Positions 5,834 to 33,324 of a stretch of 37,023 nt of DNA are shown piece by piece. The stretch is from contig NZ_RJTM01000074.1 of NCBI RefSeq assembly GCF_003725735.1, forward strand, positions 1-37,023, in the 5' to 3' direction. Under the pieces are notes generated by a model. It worked only from the letters and a program-made list of their open reading frames with translations. It searched no databases and was not told the DNA's origin. This DNA comes from Sinomicrobium pectinilyticum. Lineage in GTDB: Bacteria > Bacteroidota > Bacteroidia > Flavobacteriales > Flavobacteriaceae. Numbering within the stretch: position 1 is the first letter of the stretch; each line of letters begins with the position of its first letter. The position numbers and the translations under genes are program-made.

Positions 5834-7528
5834 ATGATCACAAAAGAATTACCGCTGACCAGCGAGAACGATATTACGCTGAGAGAAAAGCTTTGGTGGA
5901 AAAACGAAGAAAGTGAACAAATACTCAACCGGGGATATTTACTGAAAGGAGAAACGGTTGAAGGCGCTATTGACCGGATCACCACTGCCGCGGCCAAAAG
6001 ACTGTACAAACCGGAATTAAAGGAATCTTTCCAGGAAATGATAGAACGCGGCTGGATGAGCCTCAGCTCTCCCATATGGGCCAACATGGGTACGGAAAGA
6101 GGATTGCCCATTTCATGTTTTAACGTACATATACCCGACCATATAGAAGGAATAACCCATAAACTCGGCGAGGTTATCATGCAAACCAAGATCGGGGGAG
6201 GTACTTCCGGTTATTTCGGTTCGCTCCGTGCCCGGGGAAGTGCGGTTACCGACAACGGAAAAAGCAGTGGTGCCGTTAGCTTTATGAAGCTGTTCGATAC
6301 CGCGATGGATACCATCTCCCAGGGAGGTGTACGCCGCGGTGCCTTTGCCACTTACCTGGATATAGATCATCCGGATGTAGAAGAATTCCTGAAGATCAAA
6401 GATATAGGGAATCCCATTCAGAACCTGTTCTTCGGTGTTTGTGTGCCCGATTACTGGATGCAGGAAATGATAGACGGAGATATGGACAAGCGGAAAGTCT
6501 GGGCTAAAGTACTGGAGAGCAGGCAGCAAAAAGGTTTGCCGTATATCTTTTTCAGCGATAACGTAAACCGTAACAAGCCACAGGTATACAAAGACCACGA
6601 TATGCGGATCAACGCCAGCAACCTCTGCTCGGAGATCATGCTGCCTTCCTCCCAGGACGAATCCTTTATCTGCTGCCTGTCTTCCATGAACCTGGAACTA
6701 TATGACGAGTGGAAAAATACCGAAGCGGTAAAACTGGCCATATTCTTCCTCGATGCCGTCCTTCAGGAATTCATAGTAAAGACGGAAGGAAATTATTACC
6801 TGGCTTCGGCAAACCGTTTTGCAAAACGTCACAGGGCCCTTGGGCTCGGAGTACTCGGCTGGCATTCCTACCTGCAAAAAAGTATGATCCCGTTTGAAGG
6901 CATGGAAGCTAAAATGAAGACCACCGAGATCTTTAAACATATCAGGGACAAAGCGGACAAGGCCACCGAAGAATTGGCGAGGATATACGGCGAACCCGAA
7001 GTACTGAAAGGATACGGACGAAGGAATACCACAACCCTGGCCATTGCGCCTACAACCTCTTCTTCCGCCATTCTCGGGCAGATCTCTCCCGGAATAGAAC
7101 CTTTTAGCAGTAACTATTATAAAGCGGGACTTTCCAAAGGAAATTTTATCCGTAAAAACAAGTACCTGAAAAAACTGTTGCAGGAAAAAGGTCTCGACAA
7201 CGAGGATACCTGGAGGAACATTATGCTCGACAGCGGAAGCGTTCAGAAACTGGAAGGCCTGGACGAAAGGGAAAAAGCAGTCTTTAAGACATTTAAGGAA
7301 ATCAGCCAGCTGGAGATCATCCAACAGGCATCTATCCGGCAAAAATATGTAGACCAGTCCCAGAGCCTGAACATAAATATCCCTTCTGCCGTGCCTATCA
7401 AGGAAGTTAACAAACTCCTTATCGAAGCGTGGAAACTGGGAGTGAAAACACTGTATTACCAAAGAAGTCAGAGTGTTTCCAAAGAAATGGTAAACAACCT
7501 GGTGAATTGCAGTAGCTGCGAATCCTGA
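5834..7528 (+). CDS. nrdA: Ribonucleotide reductase class I large subunit, short form (NrdA)
   Basis: The catalytic subunit of ribonucleotide reductase, 564 residues, well below the roughly 750 of enterobacterial NrdA. It lacks the N-terminal ATP-cone, so overall activity regulation by dATP through that domain is not expected. The active site is intact: Cys95 in PISCFN, the Asn263/Cys265/Glu267 triad in NLCSE, Cys280 as the second redox cysteine, the radical-transfer pair Tyr541/Tyr542, and the C-terminal reducing pair Cys559/Cys562. Specificity-site segments around GGGTSG (121-126) are also present. It is cotranscribed with nrdB (19-bp gap) and ends at a strong terminator. The length is normal for the short flavobacterial group and is not a truncation. 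Confidence 0.95.
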   Translation: MITKELPLTSENDITLREKLWWKNEESEQILNRGYLLKGETVEGAIDRITTAAAKRLYKPELKESFQEMIERGWMSLSSPIWANMGTERGLPISCFNVHIPDHIEGITHKLGEVIMQTKIGGGTSGYFGSLRARGSAVTDNGKSSGAVSFMKLFDTAMDTISQGGVRRGAFATYLDIDHPDVEEFLKIKDIGNPIQNLFFGVCVPDYWMQEMIDGDMDKRKVWAKVLESRQQKGLPYIFFSDNVNRNKPQVYKDHDMRINASNLCSEIMLPSSQDESFICCLSSMNLELYDEWKNTEAVKLAIFFLDAVLQEFIVKTEGNYYLASANRFAKRHRALGLGVLGWHSYLQKSMIPFEGMEAKMKTTEIFKHIRDKADKATEELARIYGEPEVLKGYGRRNTTTLAIAPTTSSSAILGQISPGIEPFSSNYYKAGLSKGNFIRKNKYLKKLLQEKGLDNEDTWRNIMLDSGSVQKLEGLDEREKAVFKTFKEISQLEIIQQASIRQKYVDQSQSLNINIPSAVPIKEVNKLLIEAWKLGVKTLYYQRSQSVSKEMVNNLVNCSSCES

Positions 7529-7547
7529 CGGTTTTCCCCGATATCAT

Positions 7548-7596
7548 AAAACAGCGCATCCGAATATTTTCTGCAAATATTCGGATGCGCTGTTTT
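7548..7596. terminator. Strong terminator hairpin after nrdA
   Basis: A perfect 21-bp inverted repeat (AAAACAGCGCATCCGAATATT at 7548-7568 and its complement at 7576-7596) has a 7-nt loop. The stem ends in A and T runs on both sides, so it could stop transcription in either direction. It lies 19 bp after the nrdA stop codon. Between 7597 and the GH92 gene I see only AT-rich sequence and no clear promoter consensus. Confidence 0.85.
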
Positions 7597-7794
7597 AAAG
7601 GAAGCTGTTCGTCAGCACTTTACATCCCGGTCATGAAAAAAGAAGAAAAAATTATTTCGAAACCAACATTTTTTTTAACTTGCAACATGTTCAAACATAT
7701 GAACTTTTAATTAAAATATTTTCCAACATAATATTACTTTAAAATGACCATCCCCGGCCCTGCCCCCTCACCCCAAGTATCTCCATTAAAAAAA

Positions 7795-10700
7795 ATGATT
7801 CTTCCTTTTTTTATTCTGAACTCCTTATTGTTGTTTGCGCAGCAAAATGTGGTATGGGAAATAGGGCAACCGGACAATTCCGCCCGGGGTCTTGCGCTGT
7901 ATCCGGACCAGTATCAGAAATTTGTGGAGAAGGATTTCGGCTTTGAAGACCGTTTTTTTGTCATTGGTCACCACAAACCGGAAGAAGACTGGCCGTTTGT
8001 GATCCCCGGACCGGAAAACTCCTGGGGAGGCACGAGTAACACCGCGGGGATACGCTCTCATGTACTCAATGCCGAATTCGGGCTGCAGAAACCAAAACCC
8101 GGTACAGCCTATACTTTACATATAGATCTGCTGGATACGGATACACTACGGGCTCCCGCACTACGAATTACTATTAACGGTCATCCGCGGTCATTTATCC
8201 TGAAAAGAGGAACGGGAATGGCCCTGACAAGTGGAAAAGCATCTCCTTCCCGGGAACAATCCCTTGATATCGATATTCCCGAAGATATGCTCCGGGAGGG
8301 AAATAATGAAATATCCTTCTCCGTGGTCGAAGGTGGATGGATCGCTTTTGACCAGGTGAAACTCATGGCAACAAAGCCCGTGGAATTACAAAAGTCCGGC
8401 TCCTTAATAATCAAAAGTGTAAAACCCGCCGCTTATGAACGTTTGAAAAACAGTAAGTCGTATCAACCATTACTGGTCCGCCTCCTCCGCCTGGAAGGAG
8501 AACCGGAACTGGAGTTTAAACTGGATGGAAAACCTGTTTTTTCCAAGACGATCACCAAAGACACTTACGAACTGGAAATTCCCATGCCTTCCGTGAAAAA
8601 TACGGTACAAAGCGATTTCGAAATATGGTCAGGGAACCTGCTGTTGCAAAAAGGTATTGTTAACCGTAGTCCACAGAAACAGGCCACTCCGGCCGATGCC
8701 GTCAATACACTTTTAGGTACGGGGCACTCCCGTTGGATGATCGCTCCCGGCCCTTGGATGCCATTCGGAATGGTAAAGCTAAGCCCGGATAATCAGAATT
8801 CCGGTTGGCAGGCAGGATACAATCCCACTTTCGAGTCCATCGGCACATTCAGTCATATCCATGAATGGACCATGGCAGGGCTGGGAACCTTCCCTACTAC
8901 CGGAACATTACAGACCACCGTCGGGGATGAAAGCAACCCGGAAAGCGGTTACCGCTCCAGGTTTGACCTTACCAGTGAGGAAGCCCCCCTCGGGTACTAC
9001 AAAGTACATCTCACGGATACCGATATTACAGCAGCCATAACAGCAACCACCAGGGGCAGTTTTCAGCAATACACCTATAACAACAGCCCGGAAGGCAGGA
9101 TTATGATAGACCTTACCATTCCAGCCGAATACGGTTATGAAGTAGTTAAGGCCGAAATCAAAAAAGTGGATGATTTCAAACTGGAAGGCTACAGCCACCA
9201 GGTCTCCCGTGACGTCTGGTCCGGCGGTGTAAACCAGGAATATATCGTTCATTTTGTTATGGAGTTCGACCGGCCGATAGCCAATTACGGTTCCTGGATT
9301 AACGATACTACAGCGAAGGATACGGACCTGAAAACGGAAAATCCGCAACAGGCCGGGATGTATGTCGAATTCGATACCCGGACAAAGAAGCAGGTGCAGT
9401 TACGAACCGGTATTTCCTATGTAAGTACAGACAATGCAGCCCTGAACCTCCGGACCGAAATAACCACTCCTTTTGACTGGGATTTTAATGCGGTGGTAGA
9501 AGCCAACCGGGCCGCATGGAACGAATTGCTGTCGCGAATACAAATTCAAAGTGATGACAAAAGGGAATACGAAAGGTTTTATACCAATATGTACCGAAGC
9601 CTCGCCGGAAGGAATATTTACAGTGATGTGGACGGTCGCTGGCGAAATGCCGACGAGGAGATCATACAATTTGACGATCCCGGCCAACTTGCCCTGGGAT
9701 GTGATGCTTTCTGGAATACCTTCTGGAACCTGAACCAGTTCTGGAACCTGGTTACCCCGGAATGGTCCTCGCAATGGGTAAAATCGCAACTGGCCATGTA
9801 TGACAACAATGGCTGGCTAGCCAAAGGCCCCGCCGGGATGGAATATATTCCCGTAATGGTGGCGGAACACGAAATACCCCTGATCGTAGGCGCCTATCAA
9901 ATGGGAATCCGTGACTTTGACGCGGACAAAGCGTTGGAAGCCATGCAAAAAATGCAAACCTCAATGCCTTCGGGAGTAGGCGGCGGATATGCCGGTAACC
10001 GGGACCTGAAAACCTATCTGGAACATCATTATGTGCCTTATGACCAGGGGCGTTTTTCCAATTCCCTGGAATACAGTTTTGATGACTGGACGGTAGGTCA
10101 GTTCGCCAAAGCCCTCGGAAAAAAGGATATATACCACACATTTAACGAGCGTGGTACATGGTGGCAAAACGTCATTGATCCGGAAACCGGTTTTGCAAGG
10201 CTGAAAGATGCGAAAGGGAACTGGATGCAGGGCTTTGACCCCTTCAAAAGCGGTGCCAACAAACATTATGTTGAAGGCAACGCCTGGCAGCTTACCTTCT
10301 TTGTTCCCCAGGATATTCCCGGGCTTATCGGTAAGATAGGAAAAGATAAATTCCTGGAACGGCTGGAATGGGGTTTTGAGGAAAGTGATAAATGGAGGTT
10401 TAACGGTCCGAATGACCAGTACTGGGATTATCCCGTAGTGCAGGGCAACCAGCAATCCATGCACTTTGCTTTTCTGTTTAACCAGGCCGGAAAACCGTGG
10501 CTCACCCAGAAATGGAGCAGGCGTATCCTGGAGCGTTATTACGGATATGGCAAGGAAAATGCTTATTTGGGAGACGAAGATCAGGGCCAGATGAGCGCCT
10601 GGTTCGTTATGAATGCCATAGGGCTTTTTCAGACGGATGGCGGAAGCAGGGTCGACCCTGTTTACGAACTGGGAAGTCCCCTGTTTTCCGAAATCACCAT

Positions 10701-10905
10701 CGATCTCGGTGAACGCTACGGCCGTGGAAAGACATTTGTCATCAGGGCGCAAAATACCAGTCACAAGAACAAATATATTCAGAAAGCTACACTTAACGGT
10801 AAGCCCCTGAACCAGCACTGGTTCCCTGCAAAAGAACTTTTGAAGGGCGGAGAACTTCTCCTGGAAATGGGCCCCGAGCCCAATAGAACATGGGAAACAG
10901 AATAA
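7795..10905 (+). CDS. GH92 family alpha-mannosidase with N-terminal accessory domain
   Basis: A secreted glycoside hydrolase of about 1036 residues. I chose the ATG at 7795 because the signal peptide (a hydrophobic run ending LLFAQ) begins there; an in-frame ATG at 7744 adds 17 proline-rich residues. After the signal comes a beta-sandwich-like region of about 190 residues with FVIPGPENSWGG near its start, resembling the C-terminal domain of family 4 polysaccharide lyases. The GH92 part begins near NTLLGTGHSRWMIAPGPW. GH92 signatures include VEGNAWQ with the catalytic Glu (residue 827 from this start) and GDEDQGQMSAW with the metal/base aspartates. GH92 enzymes are calcium-dependent exo-alpha-mannosidases acting on glycan termini. 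The usual GDxFWDT motif is changed to GCDAFWNTFWN. The gene is a single transcription unit, convergent with the hydrolase gene ending at 10930. Confidence 0.88.
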   Translation: MILPFFILNSLLLFAQQNVVWEIGQPDNSARGLALYPDQYQKFVEKDFGFEDRFFVIGHHKPEEDWPFVIPGPENSWGGTSNTAGIRSHVLNAEFGLQKPKPGTAYTLHIDLLDTDTLRAPALRITINGHPRSFILKRGTGMALTSGKASPSREQSLDIDIPEDMLREGNNEISFSVVEGGWIAFDQVKLMATKPVELQKSGSLIIKSVKPAAYERLKNSKSYQPLLVRLLRLEGEPELEFKLDGKPVFSKTITKDTYELEIPMPSVKNTVQSDFEIWSGNLLLQKGIVNRSPQKQATPADAVNTLLGTGHSRWMIAPGPWMPFGMVKLSPDNQNSGWQAGYNPTFESIGTFSHIHEWTMAGLGTFPTTGTLQTTVGDESNPESGYRSRFDLTSEEAPLGYYKVHLTDTDITAAITATTRGSFQQYTYNNSPEGRIMIDLTIPAEYGYEVVKAEIKKVDDFKLEGYSHQVSRDVWSGGVNQEYIVHFVMEFDRPIANYGSWINDTTAKDTDLKTENPQQAGMYVEFDTRTKKQVQLRTGISYVSTDNAALNLRTEITTPFDWDFNAVVEANRAAWNELLSRIQIQSDDKREYERFYTNMYRSLAGRNIYSDVDGRWRNADEEIIQFDDPGQLALGCDAFWNTFWNLNQFWNLVTPEWSSQWVKSQLAMYDNNGWLAKGPAGMEYIPVMVAEHEIPLIVGAYQMGIRDFDADKALEAMQKMQTSMPSGVGGGYAGNRDLKTYLEHHYVPYDQGRFSNSLEYSFDDWTVGQFAKALGKKDIYHTFNERGTWWQNVIDPETGFARLKDAKGNWMQGFDPFKSGANKHYVEGNAWQLTFFVPQDIPGLIGKIGKDKFLERLEWGFEESDKWRFNGPNDQYWDYPVVQGNQQSMHFAFLFNQAGKPWLTQKWSRRILERYYGYGKENAYLGDEDQGQMSAWFVMNAIGLFQTDGGSRVDPVYELGSPLFSEITIDLGERYGRGKTFVIRAQNTSHKNKYIQKATLNGKPLNQHWFPAKELLKGGELLLEMGPEPNRTWETE

Positions 10906-10929
10906 TCTCTGCGGAATAAACCATAAAAG

Positions 10930-12060
10930 CTATTTGATCGCTTTCCACCATTCCCGGAATTCCTGGCTGTCGTCATCCAGGTTTACCGCCTCTCCTATCA
11001 ATGGGGTGACCAGTGGAAAACCATAGGCTTTATTCCCCGCCGAGACCTCGTTTAAGGGTTCGTCCCAACGATGCATTCCCAGGGCGAATTTGGAGGAATG
11101 CACGGGCATCAGCCTTTTCGCATTCAGGTCTTTTGCTGCCTTGAGGGTTTCCCCGGGAAGGCAGTGAATGGCATGCCAGGCCTCATTGTACTGTCCGTTT
11201 TCCAATATAGCAAGGTCTATGGTACCAAACCGCTCTCCTATTTCGGCAAAATGTCCATCATAACCACTGTCTCCTCCCAGGAATATTTTTCTTTTCGGCG
11301 TTTCGAGCAGGTAGGAAAGCCATAACGTATTATTTCTTTTAAAAGTACGTCCCGAAAAATGCCTTGCAGTAAGTGTATGAAGTTTAGCTCCGGATGAAAG
11401 TTCCACCGTTTCGTCCCAATCCTTTTCCTCCAGCATTTCAGCCGTATAGCCCCAATGTTCCAGGTGAGAACCTGCTCCGAGTCCGCAGACCACTTTTTTC
11501 ACCCTGTCTTTCAAAGCACTCACCGTTTCGTAATCGAGATGATCGTAGTGATCGTGCGTTATTAAGAGATAGTCTATTTCCGGGAGGTCGGAAACCATAT
11601 AAACATCAGTCCCCTTAAAGGCCTTGGTCGATCCCGGTACGGGAGAGGCATTCCCGCTGAATACCGGGTCTACCAGTATCTTCAATCCGTCCACCTGCAT
11701 AAAATATGACGAATGTCCGAACCATACCAGCACATTGTCCTCAGCCGGTAATGCTTTCAGGTCAGTCCGCACGGAAGGTATACGGACATCCGGCACCAGG
11801 CCCGGTTTTTTCCTGAACAGAAAATCGAACAGTACGCCTGCAAACGAGTATCCCTCGGTCAGTGAAGGGGTAAACGTACGGTTTACAAAAGCCCCGTCCT
11901 TATAATTCGGGGATTGTTTTATTCGCTCCAGTCTTTCCCCCGAAGGGGCCTTGCCGAATTTCGGGTGCTGTATGTATATAAAAACCGAGACCAGGAACAG
12001 GATAACAACAGAAATGAGTATGAGCATAATACGTCTTAAAAGTCTGAATAATCGTTTCAC
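10930..12060 (-). CDS. Membrane-anchored metallo-beta-lactamase-fold hydrolase (UlaG/NAPE-PLD-like)
   Basis: A 376-residue protein with an N-terminal membrane helix (about 11-30, preceded by Lys/Arg), so the catalytic domain probably faces the periplasm. The metal site is complete: HDHYDH at 169-174, His234 in TARHFSG, Asp264 in GGDSGYDG and His321 in MPVHSSKF. The architecture, including WFGHSSYF near 113-120 and NGQYNEAW near 288-295, matches the group that contains UlaG lactonases and NAPE-phospholipase D-like phosphodiesterases. Its substrate is unknown. It is the last gene of the rtcB-prfH operon and overlaps the TPR gene by 4 nt (ATGA), implying translational coupling and perhaps a shared role. 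Confidence 0.87.
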   Translation of the reverse strand: MKRLFRLLRRIMLILISVVILFLVSVFIYIQHPKFGKAPSGERLERIKQSPNYKDGAFVNRTFTPSLTEGYSFAGVLFDFLFRKKPGLVPDVRIPSVRTDLKALPAEDNVLVWFGHSSYFMQVDGLKILVDPVFSGNASPVPGSTKAFKGTDVYMVSDLPEIDYLLITHDHYDHLDYETVSALKDRVKKVVCGLGAGSHLEHWGYTAEMLEEKDWDETVELSSGAKLHTLTARHFSGRTFKRNNTLWLSYLLETPKRKIFLGGDSGYDGHFAEIGERFGTIDLAILENGQYNEAWHAIHCLPGETLKAAKDLNAKRLMPVHSSKFALGMHRWDEPLNEVSAGNKAYGFPLVTPLIGEAVNLDDDSQEFREWWKAIK

Positions 12061-12590
12061 TTTTTCTTAGCCGTATTTTTCTCAGGCTTTTCGGTATCGT
12101 CTTCCCCGTAAACAATTTTTATTTTCTGTTTCAGTCTTTTTATGGTTTCGCGGATAGTTCCGTTCCAGCCGGAATCAAATGTATACAGTTTCAATTGTTT
12201 TGCCAGCTGCAATGCATTCTCCAGGTCTGTTCTCATTTCATAAAGCAATACCTCCCTCCATTTGATATCTATCTTTCGGATACCTTTTACGGTAAGGGCA
12301 AATGCGATAAGCTTTTCAGCTTCCTCGAAGTCTTCATTGAACAAGAGGGTCTCGATGTAATACGGATAAATCTCAATAGCATTGACATTTATGCTCAATG
12401 CTTTCTGAAAACAGGCTTTGGCCTCCTCGTACTGCTGCAATTGTTCGGCATACATACGACCATACAGGCACAATACCATAGTATTGTTTTCATCGTAAGA
12501 CAACGCAAAGTCCAGGGACTCCAGGGTGTCTTCCAGGTTGTACGGATAATTATCCATGGCCTGGAGCAGATATTTATGAATCGATGTCAT
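12057..12590 (-). CDS. Tetratricopeptide-repeat protein
   Basis: A 177-residue cytoplasmic protein made mostly of helical TPR-like repeats (for example [20 protein letters not shown], then [20 protein letters not shown], and [12 protein letters not shown]), ending in a lysine-rich tail. No enzymatic motif is visible. TPR proteins usually act as protein-protein scaffolds. Its start overlaps the end of prfH by 17 nt and its end overlaps the start of the metallo-hydrolase gene by 4 nt, so it is firmly embedded in the RNA-repair operon. A role as adaptor for RtcB, PrfH or the ribosome is possible but not shown by the sequence. Confidence 0.8.
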
Positions 12591-13266
12591 TTCTCAGTTT
12601 ATTTTTTAATTGTTGTCTTTGCTTTTTATAACTCTTATTGGTCTTCTGTTCTTTAAAATCGGAACCGGTAAACACCCGGACAGGAGAACCTCTTTCTACC
12701 CGCAGCCCGTTGTCTCTTAATTGCGTAAACTGTTTCCGGTACTGTTTCCGTTTTTCTTCTTCCAGTTTGCGGAACAAACGCATACGGGCAAGCTCCTTAT
12801 TGCGGTGTTGCGAACGGGAGTCCATGGCCTGAACACTTATTCCTGTTGGAATATGTGTAGCCCTTACGGCAGAACTCACCTTGTTTACATGTTGTCCTCC
12901 GGCACCCGAACTCCTGCATGCCTGGTATTTTATATCCTTTTCGGATACTTCTTCGGCATCTGTTTTTTCGATTTCAAAGATACCAATATACCAGTTTTTT
13001 CGCTTATGGTGCTTCCGGTACTGACTTTTCCCCGTCCACTGCACCGTACCGACCCAGTTTTTGCAAAAATGCCGTACATCTTTCCCTTCCAGAAGAAGGA
13101 GTACTGAGGCTACAGTACCGTTCTCTTCCCCGTTTTCTTTTTCGATAACGGTTGCTTCTATCCCCTCATTTCGCGCTTCGTCCAGGAATTTTTTCAGCAC
13201 CTGGGCCACCACCTTCGTACATTCCGCCGGTCCGTTACCGGCGGTGATCTGTATCATTGTTTCCAT
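12574..13266 (-). CDS. prfH: Peptide chain release factor homologue PrfH
   Basis: A 230-residue release-factor-like protein. The peptidyl-tRNA hydrolysis motif GGQ is at 123-125 within [12 protein letters not shown], and family residues continue through THIPTGI and [13 protein letters not shown]. Residues 1-105 replace the codon-recognising domain 2/4 of RF1/RF2 and are typical of PrfH. The tail (about 165-230) is lysine/arginine-rich. PrfH is known to be encoded beside rtcB; published work on the Escherichia coli RtcB2-PrfH pair connects it to recovery from colicin E3-type cleavage of the decoding centre. The proposed role is releasing the peptide from the damaged ribosome so the rRNA can be religated. 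Its ATG shares one base with the rtcB stop codon (TAATG). Confidence 0.92.
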
Positions 13267-14657
13267 TACTTATCCATTCTTACGATCCGGGGCCTGAAAC
13301 TTCCCAATACCTCTACAAGTTCTTCCTGAAGCCGCATTACAGTATTGATGTCCTTATAAGCCATAGGGGCTTCGTCCACACTTGCACCAATAAGGGTAAC
13401 ATCGTTTTCCTTCAGGGCCTTTTTCATTTCATTCCGGGTAAACATGCTTTTACACCTGGAACGCGAAAAAAGCCTTCCTGCACCATGTGAAGCCGAATTC
13501 AGGCTATCCGCATTTCCACGCCCTATAACAATATATCCGGGAGCAGTCATGGAACCAGGAATAATTCCCAATTGTCCTTCAGACGCAGGAGTGGCACCTT
13601 TGCGATGAACAATACATTCCTTTCCATTCACTTTTTCCTTCCAGGCAAAATTGTGATGGTTTTCTATGGTAACGGCAATTCGTTTCCCCAAAGCCCTGGA
13701 AAGCCGGAGGTGTATATTATCGTGACATGCTTTTGCATAATCACCCGCAAGGTTCATCGCGGCCCAGTATTCCTGTCCGTCATGCGTATCCATATCCAGC
13801 CAGGCCAGGTGTTGTACGTTTTTGGGTAACGGACATTGCTTGGTTGCCAGATAGGTATAGTGTTTTGCTATGGATGCTCCCAGTCCCCTGGAGCCGCTGT
13901 GCGATAACAAGGCCAGGTATTCTCCGGGCGGCAGTTTACAACCTGGTATTTCCCTCTTTATTTCCGCTATACCAAACTCTACAAAATGGTTTCCCCCTCC
14001 CGAAGTACCGAGTTGCTTATAGGCCTTATCCAAAAGTTTCTTCACCAGCGGTATCTCTACAAATTCCGGACGTGAAAAGATCTCATGGTCCATTTTTTTG
14101 TCATGGGTCTCCTTCATTCCGAATTTGGTATGGTCTTTCAGTACGCCCTGTAAACGTTCTTTTTTTCCCTGTATGTAACCTGCGGGTATATCAAACACAG
14201 ACAAACTCATTCTACAACCTATATCTACACCAACACCATATGGTATCACCGCGTTGTCTGTTGCGAGCACTCCACCTATAGGCAATCCGTAACCGGAATG
14301 CGCATCGGGCATCAGGGCTCCCTGTACGGTAACAGGCAGCTTCAGAGCGTTGTACAACTGTTGCTTTGCTTGTTCGTCTATCTCATTTTCCCCGAATATG
14401 GAAAACGGGGCTCTTTGATTTATCAGTTCATGCATACGCACTTCTACAGGAGCTATCAGCCCTTCGGCCAGTTTCCCCCAGGTACCGTGATTTTTGTACT
14501 TTTCAGGATTAAGAAGCACTTGCCCGGCTTCCTTAAGAATCGTTGATTTTTTTTCTTTCTTCCTGTATCTGTGAATTTGCCCTAAGGCAATATTGATTGT
14601 ATTATTTTTCGGGAACCCTAATTTAATCAGATCTTTCCCGGATAATTTACTTCCCAT
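13266..14657 (-). CDS. rtcB: RNA ligase RtcB (RtcB2-type, PrfH-associated)
   Basis: A 463-residue GTP- and manganese-dependent RNA ligase that joins 2',3'-cyclic phosphate or 3'-phosphate ends to 5'-hydroxyl ends. The metal and guanylate site is complete: Asp145 and Cys148 in DIGCRM, His224 in GGGNHF, His253 in SHSGSRG, His334/His335 in ENHHNFAW, and the guanylylated His391 in [16 protein letters not shown] (351-358) is also present. It lacks any intein or archease fusion. It is the first gene of a four-gene operon, and the overlap with prfH points to repair of rRNA or tRNA rather than general tRNA splicing. The leader upstream contains several hairpins. Confidence 0.95.
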
Positions 14658-14685
14658 GTCTCTTTTTTAAATATTCGATAACAAA

Positions 14686-14731
14686 CCGGTTTTTTCCATA
14701 AACCGGCATCTTGTTTTGCCCGGGGGGCAAA
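14686..14731 (-). promoter_or_regulatory. Two hairpins in the rtcB leader
   Basis: Two short perfect stems lie just upstream of the rtcB start: CCGGTTT/AAACCGG with a 7-nt loop at 14686-14706 and TTTGCCC/GGGCAAA with a 3-nt loop at 14715-14731. Both would be in the leader if transcription begins upstream. A TATAGTTTG sequence on the minus strand (14728-14736) resembles a -7 box but has one base too many between TA and TTTG. A regulatory role is unproven. Confidence 0.4.
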
Positions 14732-14787
14732 CTATAGTTCTCAAATCGTCGGGAATCTTGGAAGTTGCGGTAAAATACCGGGAACAA

Positions 14788-14817
14788 AAAAACCCGAGGA
14801 TTTCTCTTCGGGTTTTT
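14788..14817 (-). terminator. Terminator-like hairpin between the EEP gene and rtcB
   Basis: A perfect 10-bp stem (AAAAACCCGA/TCGGGTTTTT) is followed on the minus strand by a run of seven T. It lies 284 nt after the EEP-family gene stop and about 130 nt before the rtcB start. It may end the EEP transcript or act as an attenuator for the rtcB operon. The rest of the 443-bp gap (14818-15100) holds no recognisable gene or RNA. Confidence 0.7.
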
Positions 14818-15100
14818 CATATATCTGCTGTATTTCTATATCGGATTAAGACAGATAAAAACCACGAAGAAACACATCCGTGTGTACGGAAGGTTTTGCT
14901 GTGAAGTACTTTCGGATCATGAGCATTTTCTTCGTTTTTTATCAGGTTAATAATTCATTTGCGGGCACAAAATTGCATCATTTATTTGAATTATGCAATA
15001 CCCAGGCAGAAACAGGCTTGAAAATCATGGTTTTCGGGTAGACGGACAGTGTATTATTCCGTATAAAGATAAAATAACGGCACCACCTGTTTAAATCCAA

Positions 15101-16268: not shown

Positions 16269-17141
16269 TTATTCCACAGGAATGACACTATGGAGGAATG
16301 TCCACATTTCTTCACTGACCTTTTTCTTTTCTTCTTGGGTAAATTTGCCGTGTTGCCCTCCGGGTATGGTTATAAAACGGGTTTTTACCCTGTTCTCCGT
16401 CAGTTTTTTGTACAAAGCGACGGACTGAGCGTATGGCACGATGGGATCGGCATCTCCATGAACAATGAATACGGGCGGGCTGTTCCTGTCTACATAAAAC
16501 AAAGGAGAAACTGATTTTACGAACTCTTTGTCGTTACGACCTTCTCCCAACCAGTTCCTGGCCGATTTCCACCCGGAAAGCGGCGTAAGGTCCGTGACGC
16601 CGTATTTGTCGATGATCGCGGCAACTTTCAGGGATTTATCGTAACTGCAATTCGTATCAAACTTTTTGTCATCTGCCAGCAATCCTGCCATAAGGGCCAG
16701 ATGACCGCCGGCGGACCCGCCCATCAATACGATGTTGTCCGTGTCGATATTTATTTCTTCCGCATGTTTGTGCAGATATACCAGGGCACAGCGAATATCT
16801 TCTATGGCGCCGGGAGCAGTGGCTACGTCTACAAGACGATACTCCACATTGGCAACAGCATAACCATTCTTGAAAAACGAGCCGTAACCGCGTTGGGATT
16901 CCTTAACCCCGTGATTCCATCCGCCCCCGTGAATATTGACCACCAGCGGAACAGGGGTCTTAACATCGGTAGGGTAATAAATATCCATTCTGCCTTCCCA
17001 GCCGTCAACAACGGTATATACTACATCTATTTTTGCGGTGTAATTTTCCGGGTAATCTACCGGCAGATACTCCGCGTTCTGCCCGGACACATTATAAATC
17101 ACGGATAGAATGATTGCTAAACAAACAACTAATTTTCTCAT
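16269..17141 (-). CDS. Secreted alpha/beta hydrolase, carbohydrate-esterase-like
   Basis: A 290-residue exported esterase with signal peptide 1-20 (ending NVSG before Gln21). The oxyanion motif HGGGW is at 71-75, the nucleophile Ser143 in GGSAGG, the probable acid Asp232 in HGDADP and the base His264 in GGQHG. The family is the BD-FAE/xylanase-type esterase group frequent in polysaccharide utilisation loci, which removes acetyl or feruloyl groups. It lies 22 bp behind the PL7 alginate lyase gene, suggesting joint expression. Removal of O-acetyl groups from acetylated alginate or of side groups from cell-wall glycans is a reasonable inference. The start at 17141 gives a normal signal peptide. 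Confidence 0.87.
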   Translation of the reverse strand: MRKLVVCLAIILSVIYNVSGQNAEYLPVDYPENYTAKIDVVYTVVDGWEGRMDIYYPTDVKTPVPLVVNIHGGGWNHGVKESQRGYGSFFKNGYAVANVEYRLVDVATAPGAIEDIRCALVYLHKHAEEINIDTDNIVLMGGSAGGHLALMAGLLADDKKFDTNCSYDKSLKVAAIIDKYGVTDLTPLSGWKSARNWLGEGRNDKEFVKSVSPLFYVDRNSPPVFIVHGDADPIVPYAQSVALYKKLTENRVKTRFITIPGGQHGKFTQEEKKKVSEEMWTFLHSVIPVE

Positions 17142-17163
17142 TTTCTGCTATTATTGATTTTTA

Positions 17164-18102
17164 TCAGGGATGTGTGACCTCCAGATCGTAATATTTAACT
17201 TTTGCAAAACCGGATGTATCGGTAGTTACCAGGTAATTTCCGGCTTTGAAATAGTTTTCGAAAGGCCATTTTTCCATACTTATATCGTCAAAAACATAGG
17301 TTTCGTCATCTACGGTTACCGACAGTTCTCCGTATGAAGCTTCTATTTCCACGGTAAAAGTATCGTTCCCCACTTCTCCGAAATCGTGCTTAACGTCTGT
17401 CCAGGTCTGGCTGCTGTCGTCATACAGATCAATGCCGGAAGTGGATTCGTCCACCAGGGTTTTCTTATAGGCGAACAGGTGCCCGTCTATCCAGGTCATT
17501 TTGAGTAAAGGTGGTGCGTGATTACTGCTGAAACCATAAGTGGCCATATCTTCCTGTGAAATGATACCGTGGATCTGCATGACGATAACCCGGTGATAAT
17601 CGTACTTGGCATTCACGGTATCGGGAGAGATACTGTCTATTTTCAAAGTTCCCCTCATAGTCCCTCCTTCCGTCAGCGACCAGTTGTTATAATTATTTCC
17701 CGGGGTCATCTGTTCCCTCAGTTCGGTACGAGGATAGCTGCTGTTTGGCGTTGTGGCCCCCGCCGGATAGGTATAAAATACAATAGAAGTATCCGTAGTA
17801 TCATCATACATAAAGGGCGCTAATTCCGCAATATCCTGGTAACCGTAGTCTATCAGGTCGGACGGTTGGTATTCATCGGGTTTGCCATTATTATCGAGGT
17901 CAACGGGTAAGGTTATTTTCCAGTGGCTGAAATCAATATCAGCATACAGGGCAGTATCTGTTTCTTCCGGAATATAAAGAATGTTCTCTCCGGCAAGTCC
18001 TTCCTCTATATCCCCGGAGCATGCCAGGCATAATGAAGCGGCCATCACCAGGGTTCCTTTTAGCAGGACAGCCGTCTTTAACGTAGGTGTTTTAGTTCTC
18101 AT
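17164..18102 (-). CDS. PL7 family alginate lyase, surface lipoprotein
   Basis: A 312-residue endo-acting alginate lyase of family PL7. The three family signatures are present: RTELRE (125-130), QIHG (176-179) and YFKAGNY (284-290), supplying the catalytic Arg125, His178 and Tyr290. In this family the QIH form is associated with guluronate-containing substrate, as opposed to QVH. The N-terminus is a lipoprotein signal with lipid-anchored Cys28, followed by SGDIEEG, an acidic tail like the Bacteroidota surface-export signal, so the enzyme is expected on the cell surface. It begins the second unit of the alginate locus, separated from eda by a repeat element, and is followed by the esterase gene. 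Confidence 0.95.
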   Translation of the reverse strand: MRTKTPTLKTAVLLKGTLVMAASLCLACSGDIEEGLAGENILYIPEETDTALYADIDFSHWKITLPVDLDNNGKPDEYQPSDLIDYGYQDIAELAPFMYDDTTDTSIVFYTYPAGATTPNSSYPRTELREQMTPGNNYNNWSLTEGGTMRGTLKIDSISPDTVNAKYDYHRVIVMQIHGIISQEDMATYGFSSNHAPPLLKMTWIDGHLFAYKKTLVDESTSGIDLYDDSSQTWTDVKHDFGEVGNDTFTVEIEASYGELSVTVDDETYVFDDISMEKWPFENYFKAGNYLVTTDTSGFAKVKYYDLEVTHP

Positions 18103-18164
18103 AAATCTGCTTTTTAAAGTATTGGATTGGTTTATTGGTTATTTTAAGGTTGATACATATTTCT

Positions 18165-18319
18165 TTAGTCCATGACAAAATTCAATTCCGCAAGATTTCC
18201 CTCAATTTTTGACCCCGCCCCTAAAGGGAGAAATCGAGGGAAATCGGGTTCCCTTTAGGGCTAGGGTAAAACTGATTTTCCGACAAATAGTGCCAAAATC
18301 TAATTTTGTCATGGACTAA
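18165..18319. repeat. Dispersed inverted-repeat element, copy A
   Basis: A 155-bp element is bounded by a perfect 18-bp inverted repeat (TTAGTCCATGACAAAATT at 18165-18182 and its complement at 18302-18319). Inside is a second perfect 11-bp hairpin, CCCTAAAGGGA/TCCCTTTAGGG (18219-18229 and 18250-18260). An 8-bp direct repeat ATATTTCT lies next to it (18157-18164 and 18323-18330), three bases off on the right. A second, interrupted copy is at about 34430-34912. The element fills the gap between eda and the PL7 gene and its folded RNA may separate their expression. Confidence 0.75.
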
Positions 18320-18336
18320 TATATATTTCTCATTTT

Positions 18337-19002
18337 TCAAATCTTCACATTCAGCATTTCTTGACATCTTTTGCGGATCACTTCCGACTTCAACACAACA
18401 GCTCCGTTACCGGAAAAAAGGGAAGATCCCACACCGACACAAAAAGCGCCTGCATCCCTGTATTTTTGGTAGGTTCCGGGATCTGCATCTATTCCGCCAC
18501 TGGGCATGATCTTCAGTTCCGGGCATGGGGCCAGCACGGCTTTGATAAAATCCGGGCCTCCCAGCGCGCGCACCGGAAAAGCTTTTACTATATCCGCCCC
18601 GTACCTGTGCGCATTATACATTTCGGTGAGCGTTCCGCATCCGGGGATCCAGGCTACTTCCTGTTGTATGCAATACGCCCCTACTTCCGTATCCACAACA
18701 GGGGCTACCACAAAACCAGCCCCGGCGGCAATAAACTTTTCCGCAGTTTCCCTGTCTTTTATCGTTCCTATCCCCAGGACCAGTCCGGGGCACTCCTCCC
18801 CGGTCCATGCTACCAACTCCGTAAACACAGCAAGGGCTCGTTCCCCCCTGTTGGTAAACTCTACTGCCCGGACACCCCCGTCATAACAGGCTTTGATCCA
18901 TTGTTTACAAATCCGGATATTTTCCTCGTAAAAGAGTGGTACCAAAGGGTATGCTCCGAATGTCTGTAATACCGTCTCCTTTTTAAATTTTGTTTTTGTC
19001 AT
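18337..19002 (-). CDS. eda: 2-keto-3-deoxy-6-phosphogluconate (KDPG) aldolase
   Basis: A 221-residue class I aldolase that cleaves KDPG to pyruvate and glyceraldehyde-3-phosphate, the last step of alginate monomer catabolism. The Schiff-base lysine is Lys140 in IVKAFPV; Glu48 in VEFTNRG is the proton relay and Arg52 a substrate-binding residue. A glycine-rich phosphate site appears at PSGGI. Length and motif spacing are typical. Its ATG overlaps the kdgK stop by 4 nt (ATGA), showing coupling. It is the last gene of the ten-gene alginate operon, just before repeat copy A. Confidence 0.95.
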   Translation of the reverse strand: MTKTKFKKETVLQTFGAYPLVPLFYEENIRICKQWIKACYDGGVRAVEFTNRGERALAVFTELVAWTGEECPGLVLGIGTIKDRETAEKFIAAGAGFVVAPVVDTEVGAYCIQQEVAWIPGCGTLTEMYNAHRYGADIVKAFPVRALGGPDFIKAVLAPCPELKIMPSGGIDADPGTYQKYRDAGAFCVGVGSSLFSGNGAVVLKSEVIRKRCQEMLNVKI

Positions 19003-20012
19003 CGTATGATCCTTCCGTTAAACCCGGAGCGGATTACACCTGTTATATCATCTGCCGAAAGCAGACAGGCATCCCCGGGAATAGTATGTTTTAATGCGGA
19101 TGTAGCATTGGCAAATTGCAATGCTTCGTCCCAATTATAGTGCAGCATGCCATAAATAAGCCCGGCTGCAAAGGCATCCCCCGTCCCTATCCGGTCGACC
19201 ACCGGGGTAATTTCAATGGGATCGGATACATACAACCTTTTTCCATCCCAGCACCTGGAAGCTATTTCATGACGTGACGCGTTGACAGAACTCCTGGTCT
19301 TTTGAACCACATTTCGTATCACAGGGCATTCCGCCATCAAAAATTTTGCAGCATCTTCGAATTCCTCTTCTTCGAAATACGTACCGAACAGCATGTTAAT
19401 CTCTTCGGGGCCACCCATAAAAACCGTAGACAGGGGAACCATTTCCCGTAAAGTCGCGGACGGATCGGCATCGTACTGCCATAAATTACCCCGGTAAACC
19501 GGGTCGGTACTTACGGTTATTCCTTTGTTATGCGCTACCTGCAAAGCATCTTTCAAAGCGCGGAAAGCACCGGAAGATATGGCAGGAGTGATCCCCGTCC
19601 AGTGAAACCAGGAAGCATCGTCCAAAATCTTTTCCCAATCGAATTCATCCGGGTCCGTTTCGGCAAAAGAGGAATGACTACGGTTATATACGATCCTTCC
19701 CGGCCGGTGTACCACACCCTGTTCCAGGAAATATATGCCCAGGGGAGCATTGTTGCAGGCTACAAAGGAAGTATCTACCCCATACCTGTTCAGATGTCCT
19801 TTGGCCGAAGCTCCCGTAAAGTCATCGGGAAGGGTCGTTACGTGTGAAGTTTCACACCCCATGCGGGCAAGGGCAACAGCAACATTGGCCTCTGTACCCC
19901 CATAGAAAATATCGGCTTGCTGCGCCTGTACAAAACAGTTGTAATCCTGTGGCGACAGGCGCATCAATATCTCCCCGAAGGTTACGATCTTATGTTTTTT
20001 CTCCGGTTTCAT
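18999..20012 (-). CDS. kdgK: 2-keto-3-deoxygluconate kinase (PfkB family)
   Basis: A 337-residue sugar kinase that phosphorylates 2-keto-3-deoxygluconate to KDPG using ATP. PfkB features are clear: the N-terminal GGT-EANVAVALARMG sugar-binding region (38-52) and the anion-hole motif GTGDA (276-280) with catalytic base Asp279. I prefer the ATG at 20012, because it gives the usual family N-terminus and a 7-bp gap after the reductase; an in-frame ATG at 20033 would overlap the reductase gene by 14 nt and add seven residues. It lies between the reductase that makes its substrate and the aldolase that uses its product. Confidence 0.94.
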   Translation of the reverse strand: MKPEKKHKIVTFGEILMRLSPQDYNCFVQAQQADIFYGGTEANVAVALARMGCETSHVTTLPDDFTGASAKGHLNRYGVDTSFVACNNAPLGIYFLEQGVVHRPGRIVYNRSHSSFAETDPDEFDWEKILDDASWFHWTGITPAISSGAFRALKDALQVAHNKGITVSTDPVYRGNLWQYDADPSATLREMVPLSTVFMGGPEEINMLFGTYFEEEEFEDAAKFLMAECPVIRNVVQKTRSSVNASRHEIASRCWDGKRLYVSDPIEITPVVDRIGTGDAFAAGLIYGMLHYNWDEALQFANATSALKHTIPGDACLLSADDITGVIRSGFNGRIIR

Positions 20013-20019
20013 ATCATCC

Positions 20020-20772
20020 CTAGCTAAAGGCAAGTCCTCCGTTTATATCTATATTATTCCCGGTCAGGAACGAAGATTCTTCAGACGCCAGGTAGGTAAC
20101 CAGGTCGGCTACTTCCTCTGCTCTTCCTTCTCTCCGCAATGGTGTTCCCCCGGCAACTTTGGTCCTTACCTCAACATTGGTGAAATCATCGTGAAATTTG
20201 GTGGCGATCATTCCGGGGCACAAGGCATTTACCCGGATTCCCTCCGGCCCGAACTCTTTGGCCAGGGCACGGGTATAGGTCATTACCGCTCCTTTGGAAG
20301 TAGCATACATACTGGCGCCGGGCCCACCCCCGTCCCTGGCCGCCTGTGAAGAAAAGTTCACGATAGATGCCCCGGTCTCCATCAAGGGTTTGAATGCCTT
20401 GGTAACCAGGAATACGGTCTTCAGGTTGACATTCATCAATAAATCATAAAAAGCTTCGTCCATCTCCTCAATGGTCTTACGGGCAAAGAGTCCGCCTGCA
20501 ACATTGACGAGAATATCCACCTTATTGCCAAAAGCTTCTTTGGTTTTGGCTACCATTTGGTCTATATCCTGCTGTTTGGTCATATCCCCGTATACGGCAA
20601 TGGCCTCTCCGCCAACTTTCCGGACTTCTTCCAGCGTGGCCTCAGCATGCGATTCACTCTCAAAATAATTCACCACTACTTTAGCCCCTTCTTTGGCCAG
20701 TTTTACCGAGACTGCTCTTCCTATGTCCCGCGCTCCTCCGGTGACTACCGCAACTTTTCCTTTTAATTTCAT
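20020..20772 (-). CDS. Short-chain dehydrogenase/reductase, probable DEH reductase
   Basis: A 250-residue NAD(P)-dependent SDR. The coenzyme motif TGGARDIG is at 11-18, the structural NVAGG at 90-94, and the catalytic triad is Ser142 (or Ser141), Tyr156 and Lys160 in YATSK. Fold and length match classical SDRs annotated as 3-oxoacyl-ACP reductases, but the position between the uptake transporter and kdgK strongly suggests it reduces 4-deoxy-L-erythro-5-hexoseulose uronate (DEH) to 2-keto-3-deoxygluconate, as in other alginate degraders. Coenzyme preference cannot be settled by eye; Asn35-Tyr36 follow the second beta strand rather than an Asp, which leans toward NADPH. Confidence 0.9.
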   Translation of the reverse strand: MKLKGKVAVVTGGARDIGRAVSVKLAKEGAKVVVNYFESESHAEATLEEVRKVGGEAIAVYGDMTKQQDIDQMVAKTKEAFGNKVDILVNVAGGLFARKTIEEMDEAFYDLLMNVNLKTVFLVTKAFKPLMETGASIVNFSSQAARDGGGPGASMYATSKGAVMTYTRALAKEFGPEGIRVNALCPGMIATKFHDDFTNVEVRTKVAGGTPLRREGRAEEVADLVTYLASEESSFLTGNNIDINGGLAFS

Positions 20773-20793
20773 TTCGAATTTTGATTTTTTTAA

Positions 20794-22065
20794 TTATTTA
20801 ATGATGCTTACTGGTTTGATCTTTTTGCAAAAAATGTGTACTGCCAGGATTCCGAGAGGAACAAAAACGGCTATAATTACAAAGGCCGGGATGTAAGATT
20901 CCCTTGTAATTGCCGGGATCAGAAAATTCATGACGATTACGGACAGCACACCGGACATCCCCCCGAAACCCGCCAGCGTGCCGACGGATTTTCCATCGAA
21001 CAGGTCACTGGGCAGGGTTTGTATGTTACTGATTCCGAACTGGAACCCGAACAATACAAAAGCTACTATGATGACGAACTTCATCGGAGTATCGGCCAGA
21101 AAAATAGTGGCCAGTAACCCGAGAAACATAATGATCCCGGCAATGTTTATCGTCCGTTTCCTGCCTATATCCACCGATTTTTTCCGGGTCATCAGCCTGC
21201 CTGCATACCATCCCCCGGCGATACTTCCTAAAGCTGCGCCTACGTATGGCACCCAGGCAAACAATCCGATCTGTTTGACGTCGAAACCGTAGGTATTTTG
21301 CAGGTATATAGGCATCCACCCTACGAACAGCCACCAGATGGGCTCCAGAAAAAAACGCGACACCACCACGCTCCAGGATTCCTTATGGGACAGAATTTCT
21401 TTGAGGGACAAAGGCCTGGAAGCCTGTTTATCGGAATCCTCCATGTTTCTACCCTCTGTGATATAGGCGCGTTCTTCTTCGGTTATCCACGGGTGTTTTT
21501 CCGGGAGTTTTTTATTGACGATCAGCCAGGGAATTATCCATAACAGTCCCATTGCTCCGATCAGGATAAAAGTAACTTTCCATCCGTACCCTACATAAAG
21601 CAGGGCAATAAGCGGTGGCGCCACGACTGATCCGAGAGAAGCTCCGGCATTGAAAATTCCCTGGGCAACGGCACGTTCCTTCACCGGGAACCATTCCGCA
21701 TTGCTCTTCACAGCCCCGGGCCAGTTTCCCGCTTCGGAAATACCCAGCATCATCCGGACAAAACCGAGGGAATAAATTCCTCTTACCGCGAAGTGGAACA
21801 CAGAAGATAACGACCATACGGCTATGACAATAACATAACTCATACGGGTACCCAGCTTGTCAAACATCTTTCCCGATACGGATTGTCCTATGGCGTAAGC
21901 TATCATAAAAAGGTTGAGTATGAGTGCGTAGTCCGCATCATCCATCCCCAGGTCTTTTCCCATAGCAGGCCACATAATGGACAGGGCGGAACGGTCTATA
22001 TAATTGATAATGGTTGCCAGGCCGATAAGGGCAATGATCCACCATCGTAGTCCTTTGATCTTCAA
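20794..22065 (-). CDS. MFS transporter, hexuronate-type (anion:cation symporter family)
   Basis: A 423-residue inner-membrane permease with about twelve transmembrane segments, beginning with the RWWIIALIGLATIINYIDRSALS segment typical of the ExuT/GudP group of major facilitator proteins. The A-like loop motif GKMFDKLGTRMSY follows helix 2. In this operon the expected cargo is the unsaturated uronate monomer or DEH released by the PL17 lyase in the periplasm. It starts 3 bp after the kdgF stop and is followed 21 bp later by the reductase gene, so uptake and first reduction are coexpressed. The substrate is inferred from position and family. Confidence 0.92.
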   Translation of the reverse strand: MKIKGLRWWIIALIGLATIINYIDRSALSIMWPAMGKDLGMDDADYALILNLFMIAYAIGQSVSGKMFDKLGTRMSYVIVIAVWSLSSVFHFAVRGIYSLGFVRMMLGISEAGNWPGAVKSNAEWFPVKERAVAQGIFNAGASLGSVVAPPLIALLYVGYGWKVTFILIGAMGLLWIIPWLIVNKKLPEKHPWITEEERAYITEGRNMEDSDKQASRPLSLKEILSHKESWSVVVSRFFLEPIWWLFVGWMPIYLQNTYGFDVKQIGLFAWVPYVGAALGSIAGGWYAGRLMTRKKSVDIGRKRTINIAGIIMFLGLLATIFLADTPMKFVIIVAFVLFGFQFGISNIQTLPSDLFDGKSVGTLAGFGGMSGVLSVIVMNFLIPAITRESYIPAFVIIAVFVPLGILAVHIFCKKIKPVSIIK

Positions 22066-22068
22066 AAT

Positions 22069-22437
22069 CTATTTCTTTAAAAAGTTAATATCGAGGAAGT
22101 CCTCCCGTACGGGACTGAATACATCGATAAGCATACCGGCTTCCAGGCATACGGCACCGTGCAATACATTCGGCGGAATATAAAAGCCATCCCCTTCGGA
22201 CAATACCCTTTCTTCCCCGTCAATGGTCACCCGGAACTTTCCGGAAGCCACATAGGTGGTCTGGGCATGAAAATGCTGATGCTCATAGCCTACGGCACCG
22301 GTTTCGAATTTTACTTTTACCATCATTATCTGCGTATCGTATCCGACGAACTGGCGGGAGACCCCCTGGTCTACATTTTCCCATTCTTTACCGTCGGTCT
22401 GGAAAAAAACATCACTGATGATCTTTTGGTTTTTCAT
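22069..22437 (-). CDS. kdgF: Cupin protein, KdgF-like
   Basis: A 122-residue single-domain cupin. The metal ligands follow the cupin pattern HxHxxxQ (His53, His55, Gln59) plus His93 in VLHGAV, matching KdgF, which speeds conversion of 4,5-unsaturated uronate monomers to the linear ketouronate DEH in pectin and alginate pathways. There is no signal peptide, so it acts in the cytoplasm after uptake. It lies 11 bp behind the PL17 exolyase gene that makes the unsaturated monomer and 3 bp before the transporter. Family and context agree well; activity on mannuronate- versus guluronate-derived monomer is unknown. Confidence 0.9.
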   Translation of the reverse strand: MKNQKIISDVFFQTDGKEWENVDQGVSRQFVGYDTQIMMVKVKFETGAVGYEHQHFHAQTTYVASGKFRVTIDGEERVLSEGDGFYIPPNVLHGAVCLEAGMLIDVFSPVREDFLDINFLKK

Positions 22438-22448
22438 GAAGCTTGTTT

Positions 22449-24656: not shown

Positions 24657-24684
24657 ATCGCGATTTTTATTTGGTTTTGCATCA

Positions 24685-26133: not shown

Positions 26134-26165
26134 AACTGTCGGTGTTTTAGTTAGTTTTATCGGTT

Positions 26166-28562: not shown

Positions 28563-28563
28563 A

Positions 28564-30060: not shown

Positions 30061-30071
30061 GTCCCTTTATT

Positions 30072-33206: not shown

Positions 33207-33324
33207 AATCTGGTTAGTTTTGAATAGTTTCGGTTTGCCGCATACCAAGCACCCCCACTATCGCAAAACATGGAATTATGAAACAGATAATTTTGTTAAA
33301 ATAATCTTTTCCTTAATTTTGCAG

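Follow-up and report, generated by a model that had tools for sequence, protein, structure and literature searches.

The 37,023-nt window analyzed here (positions 1 to 37,023 of contig NZ_RJTM01000074.1 from Sinomicrobium pectinilyticum, assembly GCF_003725735.1) carries three overlapping genes that encode an RtcB-type RNA ligase, the release factor homolog PrfH (RFH), and a tetratricopeptide repeat (TPR) protein (Table 1). The coordinates given for the ligase and PrfH in an initial annotation, made from the sequence alone, proved correct, with both genes read from the minus strand. The RtcB gene lies directly upstream of the PrfH gene, and the stop codon of the former and the start codon of the latter have one base in common at the TAATG junction that the annotation had described, which qualifies the pair as an RtcB-PrfH operon. 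The 5′ end of the TPR gene overlaps the 3′ end of the PrfH gene by 17 bases, and the TPR gene in turn overlaps a gene for a metallo-beta-lactamase-fold hydrolase by 4 bases.

Table 1. Features of the RtcB-PrfH-TPR locus in the S. pectinilyticum window
Feature	Positions	Strand	Basis or remark
RtcB, 463 aa, long type	13266..14657	minus	PF01139 catalytic-domain match, 1.5e-82; below TIGR03073 cut-off; trees
RtcB Cys148 codon	14214..14216	minus	invariant 27/27
RtcB His391 codon	13485..13487	minus	invariant 27/27; HGAGR motif aligned to solved RtcBs
PrfH (RFH), 230 aa, 24-aa Lys-rich C-terminal tail	12574..13266	minus	TIGR03072, PDB matches, trees
GGQ motif, PrfH residues 123-125	12892..12900	minus	sequence and alignment
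TPR protein, 177 aa, Lys-rich C-terminus, third cassette gene	12057..12590	minus	weak TPR Pfam matches, all under cut-offs
Metallo-beta-lactamase-fold hydrolase	10930..12060	minus	PF12706, 9.9e-39; probably only a neighbor
RtcB upstream intergenic region	14658..15100	minus	promoter, terminator and Rfam scans

Sequence comparisons identify the product of the second gene as a genuine release factor H. It matches TIGR03072 at 3.3e-73 (245.5 bits, above the curated equivalog cut-off of 166.65) and PF00472 at 2.3e-25, and its top solved match, at 2.3e-72, is PDB 9mor/9mq4 (Peptide chain release factor H), which spans residues 2-225 and thus most of the C-terminal tail. The second PDB match, at 5.2e-49, is 7sa4, which we take to be the E. 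coli PrfH structure. PrfH rows form a single clade against release factor (RF) rows at 100/100 in both the 56-row and the 54-row tree. The published hallmarks of RFH are GP replacing GG, S-x-Y followed by Arg, the GGQ motif, and the absence of domain 1 (PMC1586002). All of these are present in the window protein, with GP at residues 12-13, SQYR at 81-84 (S81-x-Y83, Arg84), GGQ at the position reported initially, and an RF2 match that starts at residue 130 of chain 1gqe_A, domain 1 being missing. Across 50 PrfH rows, the Arg is universal, GP occurs in 48 (the exceptions are L024 and L215) and S-x-Y/F in 41; the six RF rows compared have GG and lack the Arg.

The ligase retains its active site: Asp145, Cys148, Asn223, His224, His253, His335 and His391 are invariant in 27/27 aligned RtcBs from several lineages, so that the annotation was right to regard Cys148 and His391 as kept. 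Cys148 is presumably a metal ligand and His391 the guanylylation histidine. The protein also has an N-terminal extension of about 75 aa, for which Pfam gave no match; the best hits of this extension in a PDB search were two designed proteins, apparently by chance, and comparison with the C-terminus of a human CCA-adding enzyme was not significant (E 0.45). Residues 1-85 (14403-14657) include a G-x-DL-x-x-LG motif within the extension that is common to another RtcB paralog.

The initial annotation had treated the pair as the RtcB2-PrfH known from E. coli, an equation that the ligase does not support. Its score against TIGR03073 (release_rtcB, the model of the PrfH-companion RtcB) is 146.8 bits against a cut-off of 271.8. 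For phylogeny, 105 RtcBs were collected, leaving out L089, L101, L104 and L108 (broken or cut) and G113; the first tree holds 81 of them, the 24 omitted (14 PrfH-linked, 10 solo) having been picked by kinship rather than by measured identity. A second tree of 55 rows combines 46 of the 81 with nine new ones, including E. coli RtcB1, an RtcB1 relative and canonical RtcBs, the label "canonical" being our own and resting on high PF01139 scores. In the 81-row tree, the window RtcB groups with other long RtcBs of its phylum, Bacteroidota, in a clade that has 27 members with PrfH and 26 without. This clade is split from ten short PrfH-partner RtcBs (E. coli, Proteus, five alphaproteobacteria, Nonomuraea, a Desulfobulbaceae metagenome-assembled genome (MAG), and a Lachnospiraceae MAG) at 100/99, and at 100/95 in the 55-row tree. 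Forcing the PrfH-linked long and the short RtcBs into one clade was penalized in the 81-row set (-72.8 log units, p-AU 0.00086), a clade of the long and all short partners was rejected in the 55-row set (5.5e-12), and so was one of the long PrfH-linked RtcBs with nine E. coli-type partners (p-AU 6.7e-5). One side of the 55-row tree contains E. coli RtcB1, the canonical RtcBs and both short PrfH-partner types; the other contains the long RtcBs, the deviant row L213, and the "CLA" rows, a further RtcB paralog without His120 that, despite its label, is not a classical RtcB. The deep order of the tree is uncertain because several short rows were flagged for long branches and unusual composition; the separation of long from short PrfH partners is strong in both tree sets.

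By these comparisons, the window ligase is a member of an RtcB lineage separate from E. coli-type RtcB2, and an orthologous relationship to RtcB2 is ruled out by the TIGR03073 score and the trees alike. A housekeeping RtcB1 is ruled out as well, since E. coli RtcB1 branches on the other side of the split and RtcA (PF01137) was not found in the genome (a control search found it in 5/14 genomes). The phylogeny that the annotation had proposed therefore places the ligase with neither of its two reference types. Clustering with housekeeping RtcB, which the annotation had named as the outcome that would count against it, is half borne out: the ligase stands apart from E. coli RtcB1, and the relatives without PrfH that come closest to it are long RtcBs encoded on their own, some of them next to Ro60- or WYL-like genes. 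A close neighbor in the 55-row tree (97/91) is the RtcB of a Flavobacteriaceae MAG (L093), which bears out the earlier label "flavobacterium" at about family level only.

PrfH was found with three RtcB lineages: the E. coli type, which occurs in proteobacteria, an actinobacterium and some putative viral contigs; the Lachnospiraceae type; and the long Bacteroidota type. Since PrfH itself is one clade, the ligase looks exchanged. A PrfH tree of 54 rows, putative viral PrfHs included, sorts by ligase type: ten rows whose partner is a Lachnospiraceae-type RtcB cluster together (98/92), a second clade unites the E. coli-type rows with one unlabelled row (95/87), and Flavobacteriales rows with the long type group with Aureibacter (100/99), as do the Sphingobacteriaceae and Chitinophagaceae rows with each other (100/99). 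Over the 43 labelled rows, the minimum number of partner changes is three, where three states require at least two. The Muribaculaceae PrfH groups with long-partner Bacteroidaceae PrfH (100/97 in the 56-row tree; 97/90, with two viral rows, in the 54-row tree), yet its neighboring RtcB, truncated where the contig stops, belongs to the Lachnospiraceae type (39.7% identity; support of 100 in a quick tree). In the 56-row tree, all PrfHs from the phylum hold together as a clade (97/95), which dissolves once the viral rows are added; a single entry of PrfH into the phylum is thus not settled. Lys-rich C-terminal tails of 21-27 residues, 24 in the window protein, occur in 27 of 37 PrfH rows with a long-RtcB partner, and are missing from the other ten (L093, Sphingobacteriaceae, Chitinophagaceae, a Bacteroidaceae MAG, Aureibacter, G075 and G179) and from all 13 remaining rows (at most 11 residues there).

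PrfH also occurs in plasmid and putative viral records. Among 72,556 plasmid records, 47 match the window PrfH at 1e-20; of nine regions opened in this set, where the records from Proteus and Nonomuraea are chromosome-sized, Aureibacter has a long RtcB, seven have the short type, and none was seen in Thiodictyon. From putative viral contigs of up to 608 kb, 23 of 79 fetched loci are clearly PrfH and not RF (L273-L291, L293, L294, L313 and L323), several being near-duplicates; an RtcB is visible in the fetched piece for 16 and none for seven, and by best BLAST match 11 of the 16 are Lachnospiraceae-type, five E. coli-type and none long. Matches in 44 phage records, judged from the listing, mostly look like RF1/RF2 or host fragments. 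It is probable that the module is built around a constant PrfH of single origin, to which ligases from at least three RtcB lineages have been joined as replaceable parts. If so, the damage would be read by PrfH and not by RtcB, or any ligase acting on cyclic-phosphate ends would suffice after the ribosome has been opened by PrfH; the TPR protein may then be a targeting component of the ligase in Bacteroidota. Because a different ligase is coupled here to the same release factor, the question of which partner recognizes damage becomes testable.

In a phylum sample of 395 genomes, the S. pectinilyticum genome included, PrfH over the cut-off occurs in 28, each with a same-strand long-RtcB match 11-1354 nt ahead of PrfH, and 26 with a TPR match downstream, 64-257 nt away. 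Fisher tests made alongside these counts disregard relatedness. The TPR profile exceeds 180 bits in 29/395 genomes, namely those 26 plus G391, G282 and G423. In G391, some 40-70 bases separate a long RtcB from the TPR gene behind it, and PrfH is absent from the 9.5 kb fetched, with none over threshold genome-wide, as if PrfH had been lost; retention of the TPR gene with RtcB there gives a starting point for asking how the ligase locates its substrate. In G282 (L271), the TPR gene (7211-7741) and another RtcB paralog (10515-11927) lie 2.8 kb apart with one gene between them, which hints that the TPR protein goes with RtcB and not with PrfH; the 17 kb fetched from G423 showed no RtcB. Long-type RtcB (at least 420 bits, counted by hand) occurs in 53/395 genomes, 25 of which have no PrfH over the cut-off. 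The rule given in 2006, by which genomes lacking RFH also lack its companion gene (PMC1586002), therefore fails for the long lineage. One variant of the gene order was seen in G024 (L025), where an acyltransferase-like PF03417 gene (7596-8537) lies between RtcB and PrfH, an arrangement not seen in the six other relatives compared.

The operon is patchy, occurring in 2/6 genomes of the genus and 7/60 relatives, the present genome counted in both. A flanking phosphatase gene has different neighbors in congeners G002, G003 and G005, and a search of G004 did not find it, so that no orthologous empty site could be established and gain is indistinguishable from loss. Broken copies exist elsewhere: rtcB2 and prfH of E. 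coli K-12 are annotated pseudogenes, and in Chryseobacterium sp. E1 the reading frames for RtcB and PrfH are split. Such copies could mark the operon as a decaying passenger without function, a reading that we regard as highly improbable for this genome, given that all three frames are intact both here and in congener G001, where the RtcB, PrfH and TPR proteins are 80, 79 and 85% identical. Patchiness and broken copies elsewhere fit a conditionally useful defense trait.

The 32 long-RtcB loci examined up to about 4 kb on each side (L174-L205), 30 of them without PrfH, show recurrent neighbors. A TROVE/Ro60 cluster (one member tested) recurs in 8/32, TatD (one tested) and WYL (one tested) clusters in 6/32 each, and Band_7 clusters (two tested) in 5/32. 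These settings presumably resemble Ro60-type RNA-repair neighborhoods, and a stand-alone long RtcB with TROVE/Ro60, WYL, Band_7 and TatD may represent a Ro-type RNA-repair locus of the phylum. The resemblance suggests that the ligase now linked to PrfH derives from one that served general stress repair. The same neighborhoods, with the single RtcB match at E 1e-3 in the 5.6-Mb draft genome, lend some weight to the alternative that this sole RtcB mends cyclic-phosphate breaks of many kinds, in tRNA, mRNA and rRNA, and that PrfH merely frees ribosomes stalled by breaks of this sort. General repair of this kind seems rather unlikely: the PrfH-linked long RtcBs make subclades of their own in both the 81-row and the 55-row tree, 10/28 PrfH genomes (hand count) hold a second long RtcB, and patchiness within the genus is unlike that of a housekeeping gene. 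A pair of long RtcBs from different subclades, with PrfH behind the second, is found at close distance in Edaphocola (L100; 2107-3522 and 5579-6979) and in G075 (L185; 3432-4949 and 7015-8415), and two stand-alone RtcB types lie close together in G443 (L174).

In E. coli, PrfH and RtcB2 act in sequence on ribosomes damaged by colicin E3, and the pair protects against this colicin in vivo (PMC9223846); in the literature surveyed, repair of toxin-damaged ribosomes was tested with the E. coli pair only. The three overlapping genes probably form a cassette that rescues and repairs ribosomes cleaved in the decoding center, comparable to RtcB2-PrfH with a different ligase; in favor of this reading are the family assignment of PrfH, the intact RtcB active site, the co-occurrence across the phylum sample and the E. 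coli data. We infer that a nuclease leaving 2′,3′-cyclic-phosphate and 5′-OH ends would cut the ribosome, most likely in the decoding center of 16S rRNA; PrfH would then enter the A site and hydrolyze the peptidyl-tRNA through its GGQ motif, allowing the subunits to separate; RtcB would re-seal the rRNA break; and the TPR protein would probably bridge ligase and ribosome. The same first step as in E. coli is expected because PrfH is the element conserved here. Colicin E3 damage as the substrate is known for E. coli only, and the earlier proposal that the organism meets toxins cutting the decoding center or tRNA is one that the patchiness fits. The tRNA part of that proposal is disfavored, given that the E. 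coli pair gave no protection against the tRNA-cutting colicins E5 and D (PMC9223846).

Several observations weigh against a dedicated ribosome-repair cassette. The ligase is not an RtcB2 orthologue, so that the E. coli substrate cannot be carried over, and E. coli RtcB2 results should not be transferred to Bacteroidota unchecked. As the sole RtcB match in its genome, it may also serve general RNA repair; alongside RtcA, archease was not found in this genome (a control search found it in 6/14). No cognate toxin was seen, the surroundings of the cassette being metabolic and none of them pointing to a toxin; the colicin E3 domain PF09000 had no match in the genome, and the control genomes were equally silent. 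PrfH occurs without the TPR gene in G075 and G179 and, in another sample, in G024 and G059. Lastly, overexpressed E. coli rtcB2 alone also protected (PMC9223846), and PrfH is thus not strictly needed there. An older proposal, dating from 2006, would instead have PrfH act on another signal, such as an unusual codon or a truncated mRNA, with RtcB altering the causal mRNA or tRNA. PrfH does keep the codon-recognition region with altered motifs (PMC1586002); the activity of E. coli PrfH on colicin E3-cut ribosomes (PMC9223846) speaks against this reading, which we consider improbable.

The cassette neighbors are an alginate-use locus, GH92, ribonucleotide reductase and metabolic genes. The initial annotation's placement of the locus on the chromosome is likely, this 37-kb contig of a 235-contig draft carrying ribonucleotide reductase and alginate genes. 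A defense island or prophage setting was rejected: the neighbors are metabolic, PADLOC gave no model matches at 0.01, and no long-type RtcB was seen, by best BLAST match, among the 16 viral-contig PrfH loci that showed an RtcB. The metallo-beta-lactamase-fold gene was considered as a fourth cassette member and rejected; it is probably a mere neighbor, since no match to it was found within 8 kb after the TPR gene in congener G001 (locus L024). In the region upstream of RtcB, a sigma-70 scan of the minus strand found no consensus promoter, a Bacteroidota-type promoter pattern gave two matches against 1.4 expected, neither of them near, and Rfam gave no match; a single terminator-like hairpin lies at 14707-14685. 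The alginate-use locus (16269-33248, minus strand) is apparently complete and encodes a PL7 alginate lyase, heparinase/alginate-lyase-like and chondroitinase-B-like proteins, KDPG aldolase, a PfkB kinase, and SDR, MFS and cupin proteins. From its position, we take 28564-33248 to be a putative SusD/SusC pair.

RFH operons, a Bacteroides example among them, and a TPR accessory are already in print (PMC1586002, PMC6514570). TPR, Pol-beta nucleotidyltransferase and zinc-ribbon proteins are published RFH-RtcB accessories (Burroughs and Aravind 2019, PMC6514570), and the present locus shares with those operons the TPR gene beside RtcB-PrfH. Relatives of the window operon likewise carry nucleotidyltransferase-like and zinc-ribbon-like proteins, mostly on weak Pfam matches. 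The former occur in ten genomes or named loci scanned (e.g., G024, G040, G053, a Bizionia MAG and Chryseobacterium sp. E1), with one of three tested proteins above a cut-off; the latter occur in the Bizionia locus, under the Pfam cut-off, with relatives in six other PrfH loci (L032, L039, L041, L044, L045 and L051). Named PrfH loci come from a contig scan and are a sample, giving at least these numbers. A separate RtcB lineage is not stated in the passages of the 2019 study consulted, and no mention of a lineage difference or ligase exchange was found in the literature surveyed, outside which lie the 2022 primary paper, a 2016 review and the 2019 supplement; we claim no priority for the exchange observation.

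Compared with E. coli RtcB1 (rtcBA), the window ligase has the catalytic residues in common and differs in clade, with no RtcA found in its genome. With the stand-alone long RtcBs of its phylum, it shares a side of the tree and the N-terminal extension that most of them have, whereas those ligases lack PrfH and neighbor TROVE, WYL, Band_7 and TatD clusters. E. coli RtcB2-PrfH, studied in ATCC 25922 and compared here with the sequence from strain M-17 (L173), has the same PrfH family, gene order, overlapping genes and RtcB active-site residues; in contrast, the window locus has an RtcB of another clade, 463 rather than 379 aa long with an N-terminal extension, a 24-aa basic tail on PrfH, and a TPR gene that follows.

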